NCBI GenBank assembly: GCA_026390115.1
Contig: JAPLGO010000016.1
Span: 62,001-126,000 of the forward strand
Origin: Campylobacterales bacterium
GTDB taxonomy: Bacteria; Campylobacterota; Campylobacteria; Campylobacterales; Sulfurimonadaceae
Length of the DNA: 64,000 nt
Reading direction: 5' to 3'
Position 1 is the stretch's first letter; every line of letters begins with the position of its first letter. This document shows, one piece after another, positions 17,564-34,503 of the stretch. A model generated the notes under the pieces. That model searched no databases. It saw only the letters and a list, made by a program, of their open reading frames with translations, and had not been told where the DNA came from. The translations under genes were made by a program, and so were the position numbers.

Positions 17564-17632
17564 ATTTTAAAAGCGTTTGTACAATTTTAAAAGCGTTTGT
17601 ACAGAAGTATCGCGATTATTTAAAGAAGTATC
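17564..17632. repeat. 20-bp perfect tandem repeat plus 8-bp direct repeats
   Basis: The 20-bp unit ATTTTAAAAGCGTTTGTACA occurs twice with no gap (17564-17583 and 17584-17603). GAAGTATC follows twice, 21 bp apart (17604-17611 and 17625-17632). Spacing near two helical turns suggests protein binding, such as repressor operators or end sites of a transposable phage. It lies in the non-coding strip between the repressor and tRNA-Asn. Confidence 0.65.
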
Positions 17633-17706: not shown

Positions 17707-17781
17707 TGGCTCCGAATACTGGATTCGAACCAGTGACCAAGTGATTAACAGTCACCTACTCTACCGCTGAGCTAATTCGGA
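17707..17781 (-). tRNA. tRNA-Asn (GTT), copy 1
   Basis: The minus strand folds as a full cloverleaf. The acceptor is TCCGAAT/ATTCGGA, the D-loop contains AGCGGTAGA, the anticodon arm is GACTGTTAATC with anticodon GTT, and the T-arm holds GGTTCGAATCC. A discriminator G and an encoded CCA (17707-17709) complete it. The 3' end faces the prophage. Confidence 0.95.
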
Positions 17782-17813: not shown

Positions 17814-17888
17814 TGGCTCCGAATACTGGATTCGAACCAGTGACCAAGTGATTAACAGTCACCTACTCTACCGCTGAGCTAATTCGGA
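17814..17888 (-). tRNA. tRNA-Asn (GTT), copy 2
   Basis: This copy is identical over all 75 bases, CCA included, to the copy 107 bp to the left. The two are separated by a 32-bp spacer, pointing to a recent tandem duplication or gene conversion. It is transcribed first on the minus strand. Confidence 0.95.
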
Positions 17889-18567: not shown

Positions 18568-20196
18568 ATGGCAAAAGAGATAATTTTTTCAGATAACGCA
18601 AGAAATGCGTTGGCTCGCGGTGTTGCAAAACTAACGGATGCAGTGAAGGTAACAATGGGTCCTCGAGGACGCAATGTTTTGATTCAAAAAAGTTACGGCT
18701 CTCCGATTATCACAAAAGACGGTGTGACAGTTGCAAGAGAGATTGAGCTCAAAGATACACTTGAAAACATGGGTGCGCAACTTGTAAAACAGGTTGCTTC
18801 AAACACCGCGGATGAAGCGGGTGACGGCACGACCACAGCTACTGTTTTGGCAAATGCAATATTTTCTGAGGGACTCAGAAATATCACTGCGGGAGCAAAT
18901 CCTGTTGAAGTAAAACGCGGCATGGACAAAGCGTGTGAAGCGATTTTAGCAAACCTAAAAGCGGCTAGCAAAACGATTAACGGCAAAAAAGATATAGCGC
19001 AAGTTGCAACTATCTCTGCAAATTCAGACACTGCTATAGGCGATATGATTGCAGAAGCTATGGAAAAAGTTGGACAAGACGGTGTTATTACTGTTGAAGA
19101 GGCTAAAGGTATTTCGGATGAACTAACAGTTGTTGAGGGCATGCAGTTTGACCGTGGTTATTTAAGCCCTTATTTTATTACAAACCCGGAAAAGATGATT
19201 GCTGAGATAGAAAATCCTTGGATTCTCCTCGTTGACACTAAAATTTCATCACTTAAAGATTTACTTCCGGTGTTAGAGCAAGTTCAAAAAACATCTCGTC
19301 CACTTTTGATTATCGCTGAAGATGTTGAGGGTGAAGCGCTTTCAACTTTGGTCGTAAATAAACTTCGCGGTGTTTTAAATATCTCTGCTGTTAAGGCTCC
19401 AGGTTTTGGGGACAGAAGAAAAGCGATGCTTCAGGATATCGCAACTCTCACAAAAGCAACTGTTATTTCCGAAGAGACAGGACATACTTTAGAAGGTGCA
19501 AATCTTCAGATGCTAGGACAAGCATCTCGTATAATAATCGATAAAGATACAACCGTAATTGTGAATGGTGCGGGAGATGAAGCGGCAGTTAAAGCAAGAA
19601 TCTCCGAAATTAAAGTTCAAATCGACGCTACAACTTCAGAATATGATAAAGAGAAACTTCAAGAGCGTTTAGCAAAACTCAGCGGTGGTGTAGCCGTTAT
19701 CAAAGTGGGTGCTGCAACTGAAACAGAGATGAAAGAGAGAAAAGACCGTGTGGATGATGCTCTGAGTGCGACAAAAGCAGCGGTAGAAGAGGGTATTATT
19801 ATTGGTGGCGGAGCTGCTTTGGTTCGTGCTGCTGCAAAAGTGAACCTTGATTTAACGGGTGATCAGAAAATTGGCTGTGAGATAATTCTTCGCGCAGTCA
19901 AAGCACCGATGAAACAAATCGCTCAAAATGCCGGTTACGATACAGGCGTTGTTGTAAATGCAGTTGAGAGTGCGACAAATGAAAACATCGGTTTCAACGC
20001 GGCAACCGGCGAATATGTTGACATGTTCGAAGCCGGAATCATCGACCCTCTGAAAGTTGCAAGAGTAGCCCTTATAAACGCTACTTCAGTTTCTAGTCTT
20101 CTTTTAACAACTGAAGCAGCAATTTTTGAAATCCCTGAAGAAAAGCCTTCCCATGACATGGGTGGCGGAATGGGTGGAATGCCGGGGATGATGTAA
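18568..20196 (+). CDS. groEL: Chaperonin GroEL
   Basis: This is a full-length 542-residue GroEL. The ATP site is [10 protein letters not shown], preceded by [10 protein letters not shown]. The apical domain motif is [17 protein letters not shown]. The C-terminal tail ends in the usual GGM repeats ([11 protein letters not shown]). With GroES it folds cytosolic proteins. A strong terminator follows at once, so the operon is bicistronic. Codon use and GC are clearly those of the core genome, in contrast to the island that begins after the terminator. Confidence 0.99.
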
Positions 20197-26584: not shown

Positions 26585-27013
26585 TTAGAAACAAAAAATT
26601 GGACTATATAAACTTATTGGTAGATATTCTCCATCGTCGCTTTTAGTTTCAATGAAGTAAGATTCACAGTTTAAAAGAAGTTGATTTAAAATTTTAAATT
26701 TTTCATATCCAAATTTATATCTGTGAGAAATATCCCATTCATATTTTATTGATTTTTTAACAGTTTCATAAAATTGTAATTTATTTCCAATTTCTGATTC
26801 TGATTTATCTAAAAAATGAAAAAAATAAAATTCTTTCTCAGGAACACAAAGTAAGAAATCATTGAGAAAAATAGAATTCTTATTTGATGAAATCACATCT
26901 GAATGATTATATGTAAAAAATTTATTTAATATATCAATTCCATCTTTAACAGAAAAATTATCATTCAAAATAAATTCCATTCTTATAGGTAAAGATTTCA
27001 TAATTGATTCCAT
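26585..27013 (-). CDS. Hypothetical protein, 142 aa
   Basis: A soluble, aromatic-rich protein (PIRMEFILNDNFSVKDGIDI, then LCVPEKEFYFFHFLDKSESE) ends LPISLYSPIFCF. No motif was recognised. Its ATG lies one base past the stop of the hsdS remnant, so it probably took over the transcript of the old restriction operon. The SD GAGAG is that remnant's last codons. An internal ATG (MKSLPIRM) is an alternative start. Confidence 0.5.
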   Translation of the reverse strand: MESIMKSLPIRMEFILNDNFSVKDGIDILNKFFTYNHSDVISSNKNSIFLNDFLLCVPEKEFYFFHFLDKSESEIGNKLQFYETVKKSIKYEWDISHRYKFGYEKFKILNQLLLNCESYFIETKSDDGEYLPISLYSPIFCF

Positions 27014-27014
27014 T

Positions 27015-27140
27015 TTACAACTCTCCCCTAAATGCTCTATCCAAAATAGAAGCCTTTAATGCTTTAAGACTATCCATTTTAACTTTTTGAACTGATTTAA
27101 CTTTTTCTATTTTTTGAGAAATCTCATCCAAATATTTTGA
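27015..27140 (-). pseudogene. hsdS: hsdS 3' remnant (type I restriction specificity subunit)
   Basis: Translation of the minus strand gives SKYLDEISQKIEKVKSVQKV, then KMDSLKALKASILDRAFRGEL and a stop. This is the highly characteristic C-terminal helix and ending of HsdS proteins. Only about 42 codons remain, against roughly 400 in a complete gene. Similarity ends abruptly at 27140, at a 10-bp sequence (ATATGCTGAC) that recurs inverted at 28620-28629. It is the relic of a lost type I restriction-modification operon. Confidence 0.75.
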
Positions 27141-27191
27141 TATGCTGACAAGAATAGCATGTGGTTATTATAGAAAATACCAATACTATTT

Positions 27192-28511
27192 TTAATCCCA
27201 AATATCACCAAAAAGTACACCATTTTTATTTCCATATACAGAATCATTGTCAGGATCAAATCTTTTAAAATAATCTTTACTTTCTTTTGAATTATTTTCA
27301 TTCTGAACGATTGGTTTTATGAAAGAATTTCCATCAATATCTTTTCCATTCAAGTCATAATATAATTTTGTAATATAGTTAATACACTTTATATCAAATA
27401 GATTTTTATCATAATAGTTATTTGTATCTTTATGGATACCATTTTTTAAAAATCCATGCTGATTATATTTTTTAGTTGTATAAACATGTATTCCAAATTT
27501 ATTAAATCCATATCTGTCATTACCATTAATATCACACCCATCAATATCATATTTACTGAATGTAATTTTATGAATTTTATCTATATCAAATCCAAATATA
27601 TTAAACTGAGTACTTGTTATTTTATTAATATAATCAATATTAAAGAAATAACTGTCATAGATGTACCCAATATCTCTGTGAATACATTCAATATTGAATC
27701 CATGTTTATCATATATTTCTTTTGTCTCTTTATGAATTTTATTTATATCAAATCCATATTCATTCCAATTAAATTTTGTCTCTTTATGAATTTTATCTAT
27801 ATCAAATCTATATGTATTCCAATAATCTTTCGTCTCTTTATGAATTTTATCTATATCAAATCCATATTCATTCCAATAACTTTTTGTCTCTTTATGAATT
27901 TTATCTATATCAAATCCATATTCATTCCAATTAAATTTTGTCTCTTTATGAATTTTATCTATATCAAATCCATATTCATTCCAATAACTTTTTGTCTCTT
28001 TATGAATTTTATCTATATCAAATCCATATTCATTCCAATAACTTTTTGTCTCTTTATGAATTTTATCTATATCAAATCCATATTCATTCCAATTAAATTT
28101 TGTCTCTTTATTATGAATTTTATCTATATCAAATCCATATGTATTCCAATAATATTTTGTCTCTTTATGAATTTTATCTATATCAAATCCATATTCATTC
28201 CAATAATTTTTTGTCTCTTTATGAATTTTATCTATATCAAATCCATATTCATTCCAATAATTTTTTGTCTCTTTATGAATTCTATCTATATCAAATCTGT
28301 ATTTATTCCAATTAAATTTGGTCTCTTTATGAATTTTATCTATATCAAATCCATATTCATTCCAACAATCTTTTGTCTCTTTATGAATTTTATTTATATC
28401 AAATCCATATTCATTATATAGTGTATATGTTATTGAATGGATACCATCATCATAAAAACCATAACAATTTTTTGTAGAAAATAAATATTTAACTTTCTTA
28501 AATAAACTCAT
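27192..28511 (-). CDS. Tandem-repeat protein, 18-residue WNEYGFDIDKIHKETK units
   Basis: About 439 residues. After a ~30-residue N-terminus come thirteen nearly identical 18-residue units with consensus WNEYGFDIDKIHKETK plus two variable residues. About six diverged units follow (YDKHGFNIECIHRDIG, FNIFGFDIDKIHKITF and similar). Variation is concentrated at the last two positions of each unit. There is no signal peptide or membrane helix. The start (28511) has GGAG six bases upstream. It may be a solenoid binding protein of the broad 'YDxxGxDxxGxNKxGxH' repeat class. It sits exactly inside a deleted type I restriction operon. Confidence 0.6.
   Translation of the reverse strand: MSLFKKVKYLFSTKNCYGFYDDGIHSITYTLYNEYGFDINKIHKETKDCWNEYGFDIDKIHKETKFNWNKYRFDIDRIHKETKNYWNEYGFDIDKIHKETKNYWNEYGFDIDKIHKETKYYWNTYGFDIDKIHNKETKFNWNEYGFDIDKIHKETKSYWNEYGFDIDKIHKETKSYWNEYGFDIDKIHKETKFNWNEYGFDIDKIHKETKSYWNEYGFDIDKIHKETKDYWNTYRFDIDKIHKETKFNWNEYGFDINKIHKETKEIYDKHGFNIECIHRDIGYIYDSYFFNIDYINKITSTQFNIFGFDIDKIHKITFSKYDIDGCDINGNDRYGFNKFGIHVYTTKKYNQHGFLKNGIHKDTNNYYDKNLFDIKCINYITKLYYDLNGKDIDGNSFIKPIVQNENNSKESKDYFKRFDPDNDSVYGNKNGVLFGDIWD
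27714..28421 (-). repeat. 54-bp tandem repeats, 13 units
   Basis: These are coding minisatellite-like repeats within the gene at 27192-28511. Units are 54 bp and almost identical at DNA level. One unit carries an extra codon (HNKETK instead of HKETK). The near-identity, including silent sites, indicates recent expansion by slippage or recombination, so copy number may vary between cells. Confidence 0.9.
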
Positions 28512-28726
28512 CAATTTCTCCATTTATATGCTTAAATTATATTTTCAACTTAAATATTACATTTTTAAAATTTTTGTTTTTTATTTTATTAAAAAAAACT
28601 CTTAAATATACTGTAAATAGTCAGCATATATTCTCAACTAAAATTGCACATTTAATAAATATCATTGAAATATATTCAGATTTTATGGTTCATACCAATT
28701 ACTGACACTTCTTATTTACTAATGAG

Positions 28727-28840
28727 TTATCTACCATCTGTAAAGTAATATTCTCTGGTTATAAATCTATTCTCCCAACCATTTCTATAAAGGTTAGGGT
28801 CTATAAGGTTGATTCTAGTATCTGTTTCTGAGTATCCCAT
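28727..28840 (-). pseudogene. hsdR: hsdR 5' remnant (type I restriction endonuclease)
   Basis: The 37-codon minus-strand frame reads MGYSETDTRINLIDPNLYRN, then GWENRFITREYYFTDGR and a TAA. This is the typical HsdR N-terminus (SExxTRxxLIDPxLxxxGW...REYYxTDGR). A complete HsdR has about 800-1000 residues, so the rest is gone. It starts 12 bases after the stop of the 310-aa gene, and so probably formed an operon with it. Between here and the repeat gene (28512-28726) no other gene is seen. Confidence 0.75.
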
Positions 28841-28852
28841 ATTTTACAACCT

Positions 28853-29785
28853 TTACTGAAAAAAGATATTTTTAATATCTATTAATCCATCTATTAAATC
28901 TGTGAGAGGTTTAGTTACTTCATTTGAATATTCACTGAGAATTGTTTTTAACTTCTCTATATCTTTTTCTAAATCACTCTCTTCAAAACTTTGGATTGAT
29001 TTTATTTCACTTATATCTTTAAGTGTTACAGTAGTGTTTTTAAATTTTAAATCAAAAGATTTCTTACCAAATATAATTGATTCTATTTTTACTCCACTTA
29101 AATCCATTTTGGAAGTATCTGTTTGTATTGATACATTGAGGTTTGATTTCAGTTGAATAAGTGATAGGAGTAAATTTAATGGGTATGGTTTATCACCTTT
29201 TATGTGATTTATAAAAGTTATACCTACTTTACTTACAGTATTTTTAATGAAGTTAGTTTGTAAAGCAAATTTATCACTAATGTAATCGTTTAAATATATA
29301 AGTGATTCACTATAATCTATATAGTCATCTTTATCAGTCAACATCTTACCTATCATTAATGATATTGGTTTAATGTCGTCTTCACTATATTCTTTTTTGT
29401 CTTTTAATTTTATTGATTTAGATAATACATACTTATTAGTGTTTGGTTTTCTTATATCTTTTTTTTCAACTTTTCTTTCATTTTCAAAAACCTTATCTCC
29501 AACAATTACTTCATATGATTCCCAACTCTTATATTTAAATTTTTTATAGTCTTTTTTCAGAGAAGTAGATTTAACGATTCCACCTTTTTCTAATTTCTCA
29601 AAAGTTCTTTGTATCTTCATTCTTTCTGATTTTGTTTTTATATTAGGAAAATATATATCAATCACATCTTTGGGTGTAACCCCATCATACCTACATAGAA
29701 TCATATGTCTAATAACTTTGTTTTTTATTTCCGAATCACTATATCCATCTATATCAACATAATTTCTTTTTATAACATCACCCAT
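28853..29785 (-). CDS. Hypothetical protein with N-terminal winged helix
   Basis: This is a 310-residue protein. Residues about 18-70 (IKNKVIRHMILCRYDGVTPKDVI, then KSERMKIQRTFEKLEKGGIVKS) look like a winged helix. The last third (GVKIESIIFGKKSFDLKF, then VTLKDISEIKSI) is reminiscent of WYL-type ligand domains, though the WYL residues themselves are absent. It precedes the hsdR remnant and may have regulated the lost restriction operon. Module B lies in the divergent gap upstream. The functional call is tentative. Confidence 0.45.
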   Translation of the reverse strand: MGDVIKRNYVDIDGYSDSEIKNKVIRHMILCRYDGVTPKDVIDIYFPNIKTKSERMKIQRTFEKLEKGGIVKSTSLKKDYKKFKYKSWESYEVIVGDKVFENERKVEKKDIRKPNTNKYVLSKSIKLKDKKEYSEDDIKPISLMIGKMLTDKDDYIDYSESLIYLNDYISDKFALQTNFIKNTVSKVGITFINHIKGDKPYPLNLLLSLIQLKSNLNVSIQTDTSKMDLSGVKIESIIFGKKSFDLKFKNTTVTLKDISEIKSIQSFEESDLEKDIEKLKTILSEYSNEVTKPLTDLIDGLIDIKNIFFQ

Positions 29786-31697: not shown

Positions 31698-32315
31698 ATG
31701 GGTAGTTATTACAAAAATAGAATTATGATTTCTAAAAGAGAGAATAAAGAAGGTGTATGTGAAGATTTCACTAATAATGATTTTGAAAATATAAAAGATG
31801 TATTTGTTGAAGTTTCAAAAAGTAGAGATGTATTTGAAGAAGATATTCAAATAATTGAGGAGTTATTGAATTTTGATGAAATGAATAAGTATGATTTTGA
31901 AAAATCTAAATATAGTAATAGTGTTGTGATTAACTATGAATGTTATAGTGAAGTATTTCAATCTTCAAAGTTATATTTAGAGTTAACATTTAAATATATG
32001 AATTATTCAGATGTGTATAGTGAATTGAATAATAAACTAAAAAGAAATTATCAACTTCAAATTCTTTCAAACGAAACATATTCTTCTACTCCAAAATCTA
32101 TGTTGAAAACTAAAAGTATTCAATTTGATTTAGAAAAGAAATTAGAAACTTTAAAAAATATTCTAATTGATATTGGAAAAGATGATTGTTTAAATGATGA
32201 TGTGATTAAAAAAATAGTATCTTCTAATGATAAGGATATTATCAAATCATCTGTTAGGAATAAAAATATTTCTGATGAAACATTGGATTTAATTCTAAAT
32301 TGGAAAGTTTCATAA
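31698..32315 (+). CDS. Hypothetical protein, 205 aa
   Basis: This acidic protein was not recognised. The first 130 residues are mixed alpha/beta. The last 45 (NDDVIKKIVSSNDKDIIKSS, then VRNKNISDETLDLIL) look like short helical leucine-variant repeats. It lies between 17-bp direct repeats together with the 46-aa ORF. Confidence 0.5.
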   Translation: MGSYYKNRIMISKRENKEGVCEDFTNNDFENIKDVFVEVSKSRDVFEEDIQIIEELLNFDEMNKYDFEKSKYSNSVVINYECYSEVFQSSKLYLELTFKYMNYSDVYSELNNKLKRNYQLQILSNETYSSTPKSMLKTKSIQFDLEKKLETLKNILIDIGKDDCLNDDVIKKIVSSNDKDIIKSSVRNKNISDETLDLILNWKVS

Positions 32316-32344
32316 TACACATTAAAATAGGTATTTTAATAAGT

Positions 32345-32362
32345 TTCCCTATTTTTAGGGAA
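32345..32362. terminator. Hairpin before the first recombinase gene
   Basis: A 7-bp perfect stem TTCCCTA / TAGGGAA with loop TTTT lies 30 bases after the 205-aa gene. It has no strong U-tract on the plus strand. Confidence 0.5.
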
Positions 32363-32449
32363 GCATCTACAAAGTGCCTAAACACGGGCTTTACAAACAC
32401 ATTAAATGACGATAAGATAGTCATAATTAATACTTTTAAAGGATTTATT

Positions 32450-33034
32450 ATGAGTCGTCCAAAAAATACAAACCGAAATTCAAAACCAATCTTAGATAGA
32501 GAATATTCAATTCTAAAATCATATGTGAATGGATTGGAAACTTTTGAAACTACAAAAGTGAAATGGTTGAGAAGTGTTGAGTTACTTTTTATAAGTGGAT
32601 TGAGAGTATCTGAAATATTGGATATAAAAATCAATGATATTGTTGAGGGTATAAAAAAATCTGAGTTAAGTGTATTTGTGAAAAAACAAAAAATAATTCG
32701 TCACATTCCACTCTCAGATAAATCTGTATCTATTCTAAAAAAACTTATCAAAGATGAAACTGATATGGATGGATATTTTATCCATAAGAGAAATTCAAAA
32801 CGAAACAATCTTAATTCAATTGGATTTACAAAAGATTTCAATTTCATTATTCAAAACATTTTGGGAAAAGAGTTTTCATCACATAGTTTTAGAAAGGGAA
32901 TTATAACTCATATGAGTATGAAGGGAATCAACCCTAAAATCACTCAGAGTTACATCGGTCACAGAAATGTAACTACTACCCTCAACTATTACAAACCAAC
33001 TTCTGAGGATGTTAGAGAGTGTTTAGTGAGATAA
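32450..33034 (+). CDS. Short tyrosine recombinase
   Basis: This is a 194-residue protein containing essentially only the catalytic domain. Arg is in SGLRVSEIL, His-x-x-Arg in HSFRKGIITH, His in GHRN and the nucleophile Tyr in LNYYKP. The N-terminal core-binding domain of Xer/integrases is missing, as in FimB-type or some plasmid recombinases. The ATG at 32450 has AAAGGA upstream. It may resolve dimers, invert DNA or help the second recombinase. Confidence 0.8.
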   Translation: MSRPKNTNRNSKPILDREYSILKSYVNGLETFETTKVKWLRSVELLFISGLRVSEILDIKINDIVEGIKKSELSVFVKKQKIIRHIPLSDKSVSILKKLIKDETDMDGYFIHKRNSKRNNLNSIGFTKDFNFIIQNILGKEFSSHSFRKGIITHMSMKGINPKITQSYIGHRNVTTTLNYYKPTSEDVRECLVR

Positions 33035-33396: not shown

Positions 33397-34503
33397 ATGA
33401 ATTTAGTTAAATCAAAAAAATTTATCGGTGTTTACTCATATGAAAGAAAAGATAAGGATATTTCCTACTACATAACATATAGAGATACAAATGGAAAACA
33501 GTTTAAACAAAAAATTGGTGAAAAATCCAAAGGTATTAATGAAAACTATTGTAATCAATTAAGAAATCAAACAATCAATCAACTTAAATTAGGTGAATTA
33601 CCACCTAATGTAATTTTGAGGATGAAACATAAAGTAGTTACATTGAATAGTATTTCTGATTATTACTTTAAACATCACATATCAAAATCAAAACATAAGT
33701 GGGAAAACAAATACAATTTACATATTAGAGATTTGATTGGAAAAAAAGATGTTGAGTTATTAGATATAACAGATATGGAATTATTACAACAATCTATGAT
33801 TGATAAAAATTTATCTAATTCAACTATCAACAATTACTTTGATATAGTATCATCAATATGTAATTTTGGATTATCCAAAGATATTTATAAAGGTAAAAAT
33901 CCAACTAAACTAATAAAAAAACAAAAGGTAGATAATATCAGAGAGAGGTTTCTATCAAAATCTGAAGTATCCGATTTAATAGAATGTGTAAAATCTAATT
34001 TTACTCTTCATTTGTTTACAAAACTATCACTCTCAACTGGTGGTAGATTTTCAACTATTTTAAATATAAAAAAGAGAGATATAGATTTAGAAAATGGAAT
34101 TATTACACTTAAAGATTTCAAAAATGAAACTACATACAGTGGTTACATATCTGATAATGATTTAGTAGAATTATTACAGATTAGAATGAATACTATTGGT
34201 AATAATGATTATCTAATAAGAGAAGATGGTATCAAAGATATCGGTAGATATATAAGTAGAAAAATGAGTGGAATATTTTATGATTTATTCAACAGTGATA
34301 TAGATGAAGAAGATAAAGATTATAGAAAATATAAGGTTGTAATTCATACCCTTAGACATACAGTATTATCTCATTTAGGGATTAATGGTGTTTCACCTTT
34401 TGAGATTAAAAAAATATCTAATCATAAATCACTATTGATGGTTGAAAGATATGTAAAACTAAACCCTAATAGTGGTAAAGACAAAATTCAAAATTTATTC
34501 TAA
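33397..34503 (+). CDS. Integrase, tyrosine recombinase family
   Basis: At 368 residues it has the full integrase layout. There is an N-terminal arm-binding strand region (YSYERKDKDISYYITYRDTN), a core-binding SAM-like domain at about 75-165, and the catalytic domain with Arg in STGGRFSTIL, HxxR in HTLRHTVLSH, His in SNHKSL and Tyr in VERYVKL. It ends the island on the right, as usual for integrases near att. GGAAGG precedes the ATG. Confidence 0.9.
   Translation: MNLVKSKKFIGVYSYERKDKDISYYITYRDTNGKQFKQKIGEKSKGINENYCNQLRNQTINQLKLGELPPNVILRMKHKVVTLNSISDYYFKHHISKSKHKWENKYNLHIRDLIGKKDVELLDITDMELLQQSMIDKNLSNSTINNYFDIVSSICNFGLSKDIYKGKNPTKLIKKQKVDNIRERFLSKSEVSDLIECVKSNFTLHLFTKLSLSTGGRFSTILNIKKRDIDLENGIITLKDFKNETTYSGYISDNDLVELLQIRMNTIGNNDYLIREDGIKDIGRYISRKMSGIFYDLFNSDIDEEDKDYRKYKVVIHTLRHTVLSHLGINGVSPFEIKKISNHKSLLMVERYVKLNPNSGKDKIQNLF

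Follow-up and report, generated by a model that had tools for sequence, protein, structure and literature searches.

We find that a short segment of the window (the whole 64,000-nucleotide stretch of DNA analyzed here, from a Campylobacterales bacterium) retains the first codons of hsdR and the last codons of hsdS on either side of a repeat-protein gene, and we consider that it probably represents the remnant of a type IB (EcoAI-like) operon in which the repeat gene is a retained passenger of the "R-linked ORF" (rlo) class. Nothing at the locus can act as a restriction system: a complete set of HsdR nuclease and motor domains is absent, with a stop at codon 38 and no further hsdR homology detected, and so is an HsdS with two target-recognition domains, of which the last 42 codons alone are recognizable. 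The segment comprises the following features:

28711..28840, minus strand: 5′ stub of hsdR, EcoAI (type IB) family, with codons 1-37 intact and a stop at codon 38
28524..28710: AT-rich non-coding stretch (18% GC over 28524-28726), with no detectable hsdR, hsdM or hsdS homology beyond the stub
27192..28523, minus strand, shared with the hsd stubs: 18-residue repeat gene of 443 codons, the candidate passenger
27720..28415, minus strand: 54-bp tandem repeat array, 12.8 copies with 91% matches
27141..27191: 51-bp spacer from the repeat gene stop to the hsdS stub
27015..27140, minus strand: 3′ stub of hsdS, last 42 codons plus stop

The hsdR stub (28840-28730, minus strand) encodes 37 residues followed by a stop at codon 38, where relatives read on; the next two codons still match the relatives, and DNA homology extends past the stop to approximately 28711, at about codon 42-43. 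The 37-residue peptide matches the NCBIfam model NF046051 (EcoAI/FtnUII HsdR) over positions 2-36 with an E-value of 1.8e-5, far below the whole-protein cut-off and for an N-terminal stub only, and it also matches PADLOC REase_I (E 0.011) and PDB 3h1t (E 0.01). Among 298 genomes of the order, the peptide yields 36 matches in 35 genomes, its own locus counted; the other 35 matches share 47-68% identity with it, and 21 of the 36 begin at its residue 1, the remainder beginning at residues 2-4. Assignment to the EcoAI family, based on NF046051 and on the N-termini of full-length members, applies to this N-terminal stub alone.

The hsdS stub (27140-27015, minus strand) encodes 42 residues followed by a stop. 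It matches the C-terminal part of the PADLOC Specificity_I profile (best E 1.4e-7), the C-termini of PDB 5ybb and 3okg (E 8.3e-4 and 9.2e-4) and the hsdS of a same-genus locus, L094, with 85% identity over 40 residues and 87.8% DNA identity over 123 bp. The stop of the repeat gene lies just 51 bp from this stub. A few more, unrecognizable hsdS codons ahead of the apparent stub start are conceivable, because this start falls at the end of the variable recognition domain in relatives. Both fragments are short; Pfam calls neither, and NCBIfam yields no match for the hsdS one. The best relatives of the hsdR stub (L086 and L098) and of the hsdS stub (L094 and L091) are not the same loci, which is unsurprising because HsdS genes recombine.

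An earlier note on this DNA had read the two fragments as the start of hsdR and the end of hsdS, surviving on the same strand in the hsdR...hsdS order, and had proposed to compare them with HsdR and HsdS profiles. Both match (NF046051 and REase_I for the former, Specificity_I for the latter) and both align with the corresponding N- and C-termini of relatives, so the reading holds. The extents given there, 37 hsdR codons and about 42 hsdS codons, require only the adjustment that the hsdR stub is slightly longer and already includes a stop. The claim that all of hsdRMS in between is gone is likewise borne out, with no hsdR, hsdM or hsdS body detectable between the stubs. The 51 bp and the ~187 bp beside the repeat gene hold no hsdM, hsdR or hsdS remains, HsdM giving no significant match in these gaps, and every ORF of at least 60 aa between the stubs is the repeat gene or overlaps either that gene or the hsdS stub.

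Incomplete hsdR genes recur in relatives. Among the 36 hsdR 5′ ends in the 298 genomes, 24 open a frame of 768-806 aa, seven are stubs (the window, G232, G111, G055, G140, G119 and G205) and three stop at contig ends (G109, G294:C145 and G251), the remaining two being a full gene with a frame break (G253) and a 1357-aa frame (G083). Within the best 80 of 371 relatives, 51 are full length, 14 extend beyond the stored DNA and 15 are short for other reasons. Ten of these 15 carry deletions (L131, L146, L148, L158, L171, L172, L178, L179, L182 and L188), two are homologous throughout, with stops (L129 and L139), and three lie too close to a contig end to judge (L130, L177 and L181). L148, L178 and L182 seem to be identical loci to L109, L112 and L114, and the breaks in L131 and L148 fall at the same codon.

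In four scars (L115, L131, L171 and L188), as in the window, an hsdS 3′ stub comes after an hsdR 5′ stub; several of the genomes with parallel scars are metagenome assemblies, where breaks can be artefacts. In L115 (from G205) the hsdR stub is followed by a full-length IetA-IetS pair, an hsdM stub, a small gene that we take to be transposase-like and the hsdS 3′ stub, and in L131 by methylase pieces, a full-length MNT/HEPN pair and the hsdS 3′ stub. L171 pairs an hsdR stub with an hsdS 3′ end (55 bp of DNA, missed by the protein search), after which come an AbiEii toxin gene and its DUF6088 partner. Genes lie between the stubs in L115, L131 and L171, yet their contents differ and the repeat gene of the window is in none of them. 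In L188, about 70 hsdR codons are fused in frame to the last ~45-50 hsdS codons with no passenger; this HsdR N-terminus/HsdS C-terminus fusion (L188:867-1259) forms a single 130-codon ORF in a Ratteibacteria metagenome-assembled genome. L114, unlike the window, has 39 hsdR codons joined straight at the hsdS stop, and the genes flanking the L111 stub look the same as those around the intact L096 operon. L086 (from G207), where hsdR is whole, no hsdM is seen, hsdS is cut to its last 121 codons, Fic is in two pieces and a presumably KilA-N-like gene is also found, looks like a half-decayed intermediate. The 3′ part of hsdR also survives in L113, L115, L112/L178 and L179. Taken as a set, the parallel scars fit stepwise deletion, with passengers sometimes left whole.

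Codons 38-43 and 63-71, close to the conserved motifs FTDGRK and IEAK, are frequent end points of the hsdR 5′ stubs (the window, at 28711; L114, L111 and L113/L115; L172, L178, L179, L188 and L109/L131), while other stubs end at ~92, 106 and 120 codons. This clustering may be due to chance or to repeated trimming, and no significance is claimed for it, the two codon ranges having been chosen after seeing the data.

To define what the slot between hsdR and hsdS holds in intact operons, 20 loci with an EcoAI-family hsdR were fetched, of which 12 are complete hsdR-first operons (L088-L092, L094, L096-L098, L100, L102 and L103). The decayed L086 was left out, together with loci cut by a contig or stretch end (L087, L093, L095, L099 and L101), L104, where hsdS was not identified, and L105, where hsdS precedes hsdR. 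In these operons hsdM, hsdS and Fic were identified from how their sequences begin and end, with a partial BLAST check and, for Fic, Pfam on one example. All but one of the 12 have one or more genes besides Fic between hsdR and hsdS, the exception (L089) having Fic alone; these passengers run in the same direction as the operon, and hsdM lies before hsdS in eight operons and after it in L096, L098, L102 and L103. The 11 operons hold 22 passenger genes, 21 of which are lower in GC than the hsd genes of their own operon. The eight passengers scanned include HamA of Hachiman (L102), Tmn and a Zeta toxin (L094), a TIR effector (L098), a GajA/PtuA-like AAA protein (L090), a PD-T4-5-like protein (L092, with Pfam Abi_2 below cut-off), a generic AAA/SMC protein (L103, Pfam only) and a 350-aa protein of L092 with no match (Pfam only). 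The hsdR-hsdS slot as a class is supported as a defence hotspot.

Genes embedded in type I operons are already known. Campylobacter jejuni type I operons hold rlo and mlo genes, the rlo ORFs lying between hsdR and hsdS (PMC5183652, PMC2928727). The repeat gene is likewise an ORF between hsdR and hsdS that runs in the direction of both, and it is likened to rlo genes by this position and strand; it differs in that the C. jejuni rlo loci keep hsdR, hsdM and hsdS, whereas the window has stubs alone, and in that the ORF of the window matches no known defence family in the libraries searched. TgvAB, defence genes inside the Vibrio cholerae VPI-2 type I operon (PMC11411939), are GmrSD-like and their operon is active, in contrast to a repeat protein in a dead operon. 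PrrC, an accessory effector inside the EcoprrI type IC operon (PMC3874165), acts as an anticodon nuclease coupled to a functional enzyme; the repeat protein of the window showed no domain of this kind.

The 18-residue unit has the form W-N-E-Y-G-F-D-I-D-K-I-H-K-E-T-K-x-x, and 13 of its copies are near-identical save at the adjacent positions 17-18, where the residue pairs are, in order, DC, FN, NY, NY, YY, FN, SY, SY, FN, SY, DY, FN and EI. Of the 39 nucleotide differences across the 13 units, 24 fall in codons 17-18, all six sites of which are variable; for a six-site stretch fixed in advance, the probability that every site varies would be 2e-4, but this one was chosen post hoc. The changes between copies are 3 synonymous against 36 non-synonymous, where random change would give a synonymous share of 14%, and provide no evidence of purifying selection between the repeat copies.

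In a class-wide sample of 347 genomes, the nearest relative of the repeat protein, found in G287 (same family), shares 41% identity over residues 37-280, and G098 gives a weak match (E 4.3e-4). The G287 gene is not in a defence locus, its flanking genes reading, we assume, as tsaD- and tpx-like. The repeat alignment, searched against 60 relatives, matched only the window's own gene, and no relative of the protein was found in the 112 fetched stretches surrounding hsd genes (tblastn, E 0.01; duplicates and contig ends counted), nor was the gene found in an intact type I operon among them. Neither the repeat protein nor the G287 relative matched anything in phages, and neither the protein nor the repeat alignment did in viral contigs. 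Plasmid matches to the repeats come from Fusobacterium, Cetobacterium and Euzebya records, and of these the neighbourhood was inspected for the Fusobacterium match alone. The same kind of repeat occurs in Cetobacterium genes annotated as pelG (hits H4 and H5) and in Fusobacterium; in Fusobacterium vincentii (L017) the repeats lie in the same open frame as a membrane protein read as PelG-like, following a lipobox-like stretch.

No fitting family was found for the repeat protein in Pfam or PADLOC, and neither library reveals a defence domain in it, the best PADLOC model reaching a non-significant E of 0.097. The Pfam Rsa3 match, above cut-off (E 4.1e-9), was discarded as a repeat artefact, its best stretch being 17 residues long and no stretch being significant alone. 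The family phrog_20262 was also rejected, despite an E-value of 1.8e-22, because the matches of this model in three other genomes resemble unrelated coiled-coil repeats. Structure prediction gives a pLDDT of 37 for the whole protein and of 57 for a 113-residue piece, with about one helix per repeat; no prediction is confident, and they are too weak for a fold search.

Variable diresidues occur in modular recognition proteins, which positions 17-18 may resemble in this respect. A recognition code in the repeats is only speculation, because positions 17-18 are not the most variable in the G287 relative. An accessory defence role of the repeat gene, present or past, in which its product would probably bind something by its repeats, is rather unlikely in our estimation, and the narrower proposal of an undescribed defence passenger reading or binding its target via modular 18-residue repeats we regard as improbable. 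The earlier note had suggested that the gene might be a functional substitute for the lost system in a defence hotspot: the substitute finds no support, the gene having no significant PADLOC match and no relatives in the 112 hsd stretches, and the hotspot holds for the slot as a class rather than for the repeat gene itself.

The genome of the window (2.64 Mb in 39 contigs) contains type I-like hsdR genes elsewhere, none of which scores above the EcoAI-family cut-off. The segment lies in an AT-rich island spanning ~20.2 to 34.6 kb of the window (GC 0.251, or 25%), which is preceded by groEL and has two integrase genes at its right end:

17707-17781 and 17814-17888: two tRNA-Asn genes
18568-20196: groEL
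26585..27013, minus strand: 142-aa ORF, beginning 1 bp past the hsdS stop
28853..29785, minus strand: 310-aa ORF with its stop 12 bp before the hsdR start
32300..33034, plus strand: integrase, matching PHROG integrase families
33397..34503, plus strand: integrase, matching Pfam Phage_integrase

The 310- and 142-aa ORFs lie on the same strand as the stubs, abut them by 12 bp and 1 bp, and may once have belonged to the same transcription unit. The 310-aa ORF has no convincing Pfam match and three distant relatives among the 298 genomes, and the 142-aa ORF has none in the other 297; viral contigs gave no match for the former, plasmids none for either, and neither has a relative in the 112 hsd stretches (tblastn, E 0.01). 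No RNA family reaches its gathering score in 20-36 kb of the window. Attachment repeats bounding the island, sought between 20.2-21.1 and 34.5-35.1 kb, were dropped, as there is no common word of at least 12 and the longest, of 10, is matched by 179 of 200 plain shuffles. A 20-bp unit occurs in two exact copies at 17564-17603, ~100 bp from the tRNA-Asn genes.

The earlier note had called for homologous islands with a complete hsdRMS at this point. None was found in 35 stretches behind the groEL of genus-mates, drawn from 52 genus genomes with a groEL match, nine of these stretches being shorter than 8 kb. No HsdR or HsdS was found in them, and HsdM gave one weak match (L084). When 17 window proteins were compared with these stretches, a two-component pair and one integrase matched, the integrase (in L062) being the only island gene so matched. 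Across the 112 hsd stretches, groEL lies within ~1.2 kb of an hsd operon or scar in six (L088, L089, L114/L182, L132 and L141, with L114 and L182 looking like one locus). In the window, too, groEL precedes the island, at 8.6 kb from the hsdR stub, and its neighbourhood is a possible insertion hotspot.

In our preferred reading, the ancestral operon would have been of the Campylobacterota kind, with hsdR, then passengers, then hsdM and hsdS in either order; the repeat gene would already have been between hsdR and hsdS before decay; and deletions would have taken nearly all of hsdR, hsdM and hsdS, leaving the hsdR 5′ stub and the hsdS 3′ stub and keeping the repeat gene. The strand, position and low GC of the gene (0.215, against 0.333 and 0.278 in the stubs) fit a surviving passenger, even though low GC does not tell a passenger from an island gene, because the whole island is AT-rich. 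The proposal that the operon was deleted and replaced is sustained as regards the loss, by both stubs and the parallel scars; replacement is not, given that the slot of intact relatives already carries passengers and that full-length passengers lie between the same kinds of stub in L115 and L131.

Later insertion of the repeat gene into the scar is possible, and we give it a lesser share of the probability: one big deletion would have fused hsdR to hsdS, and an ordinary island gene, never part of the operon, would have been inserted afterwards. This sequence of events fits as well, because the gaps beside the repeat gene are without operon remains; passenger-free joints exist (the direct fusion of L188, and that of L114 at the hsdS stop), the examined hsd stretches hold no relatives of the gene, and its GC (0.215) is close to that of its neighbour genes (0.214 and 0.245). 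Conversely, the gene is oriented with the operon, as passengers are, no part of the non-coding stretch 28524-28730 longer than 46 bp recurs in the genome, and no significant ends of an inserted element were found. A mobile cassette with terminal inverted repeats was dropped on this last count, the 10-bp pair flanking the gene (ATATGCTGAC) being equalled in 186 of 2000 shuffles.

Cassette exchange, in which the conserved hsdR and hsdS ends would serve as homology arms and the interior would be swapped for a gene substituting for restriction, is very improbable: the same two ends do enclose different contents in the window, L115, L131 and L171, but the surviving 3′ parts of hsdR in relatives fit stepwise deletion instead, the window's hsdR stub contains a stop and the repeat protein has no defence domain. 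That the two fragments are chance resemblances, or separate arrivals never in one operon, is extremely improbable, since short as they are, uncalled by Pfam and with best relatives in different loci, they match several profiles at the protein ends expected of them, with strand and order in agreement and with the high hsdS DNA identity given above.

Under the operon-remnant reading, the case is mostly one of ordinary decay, plus a useful signpost. Passengers, of which several belong to known defence families, can persist after the restriction genes have gone. Because the slot usually carries passengers, which can outlive the hsd genes, paired hsdR and hsdS stubs provide a cheap marker for candidate defence genes without a known domain, the repeat gene included.
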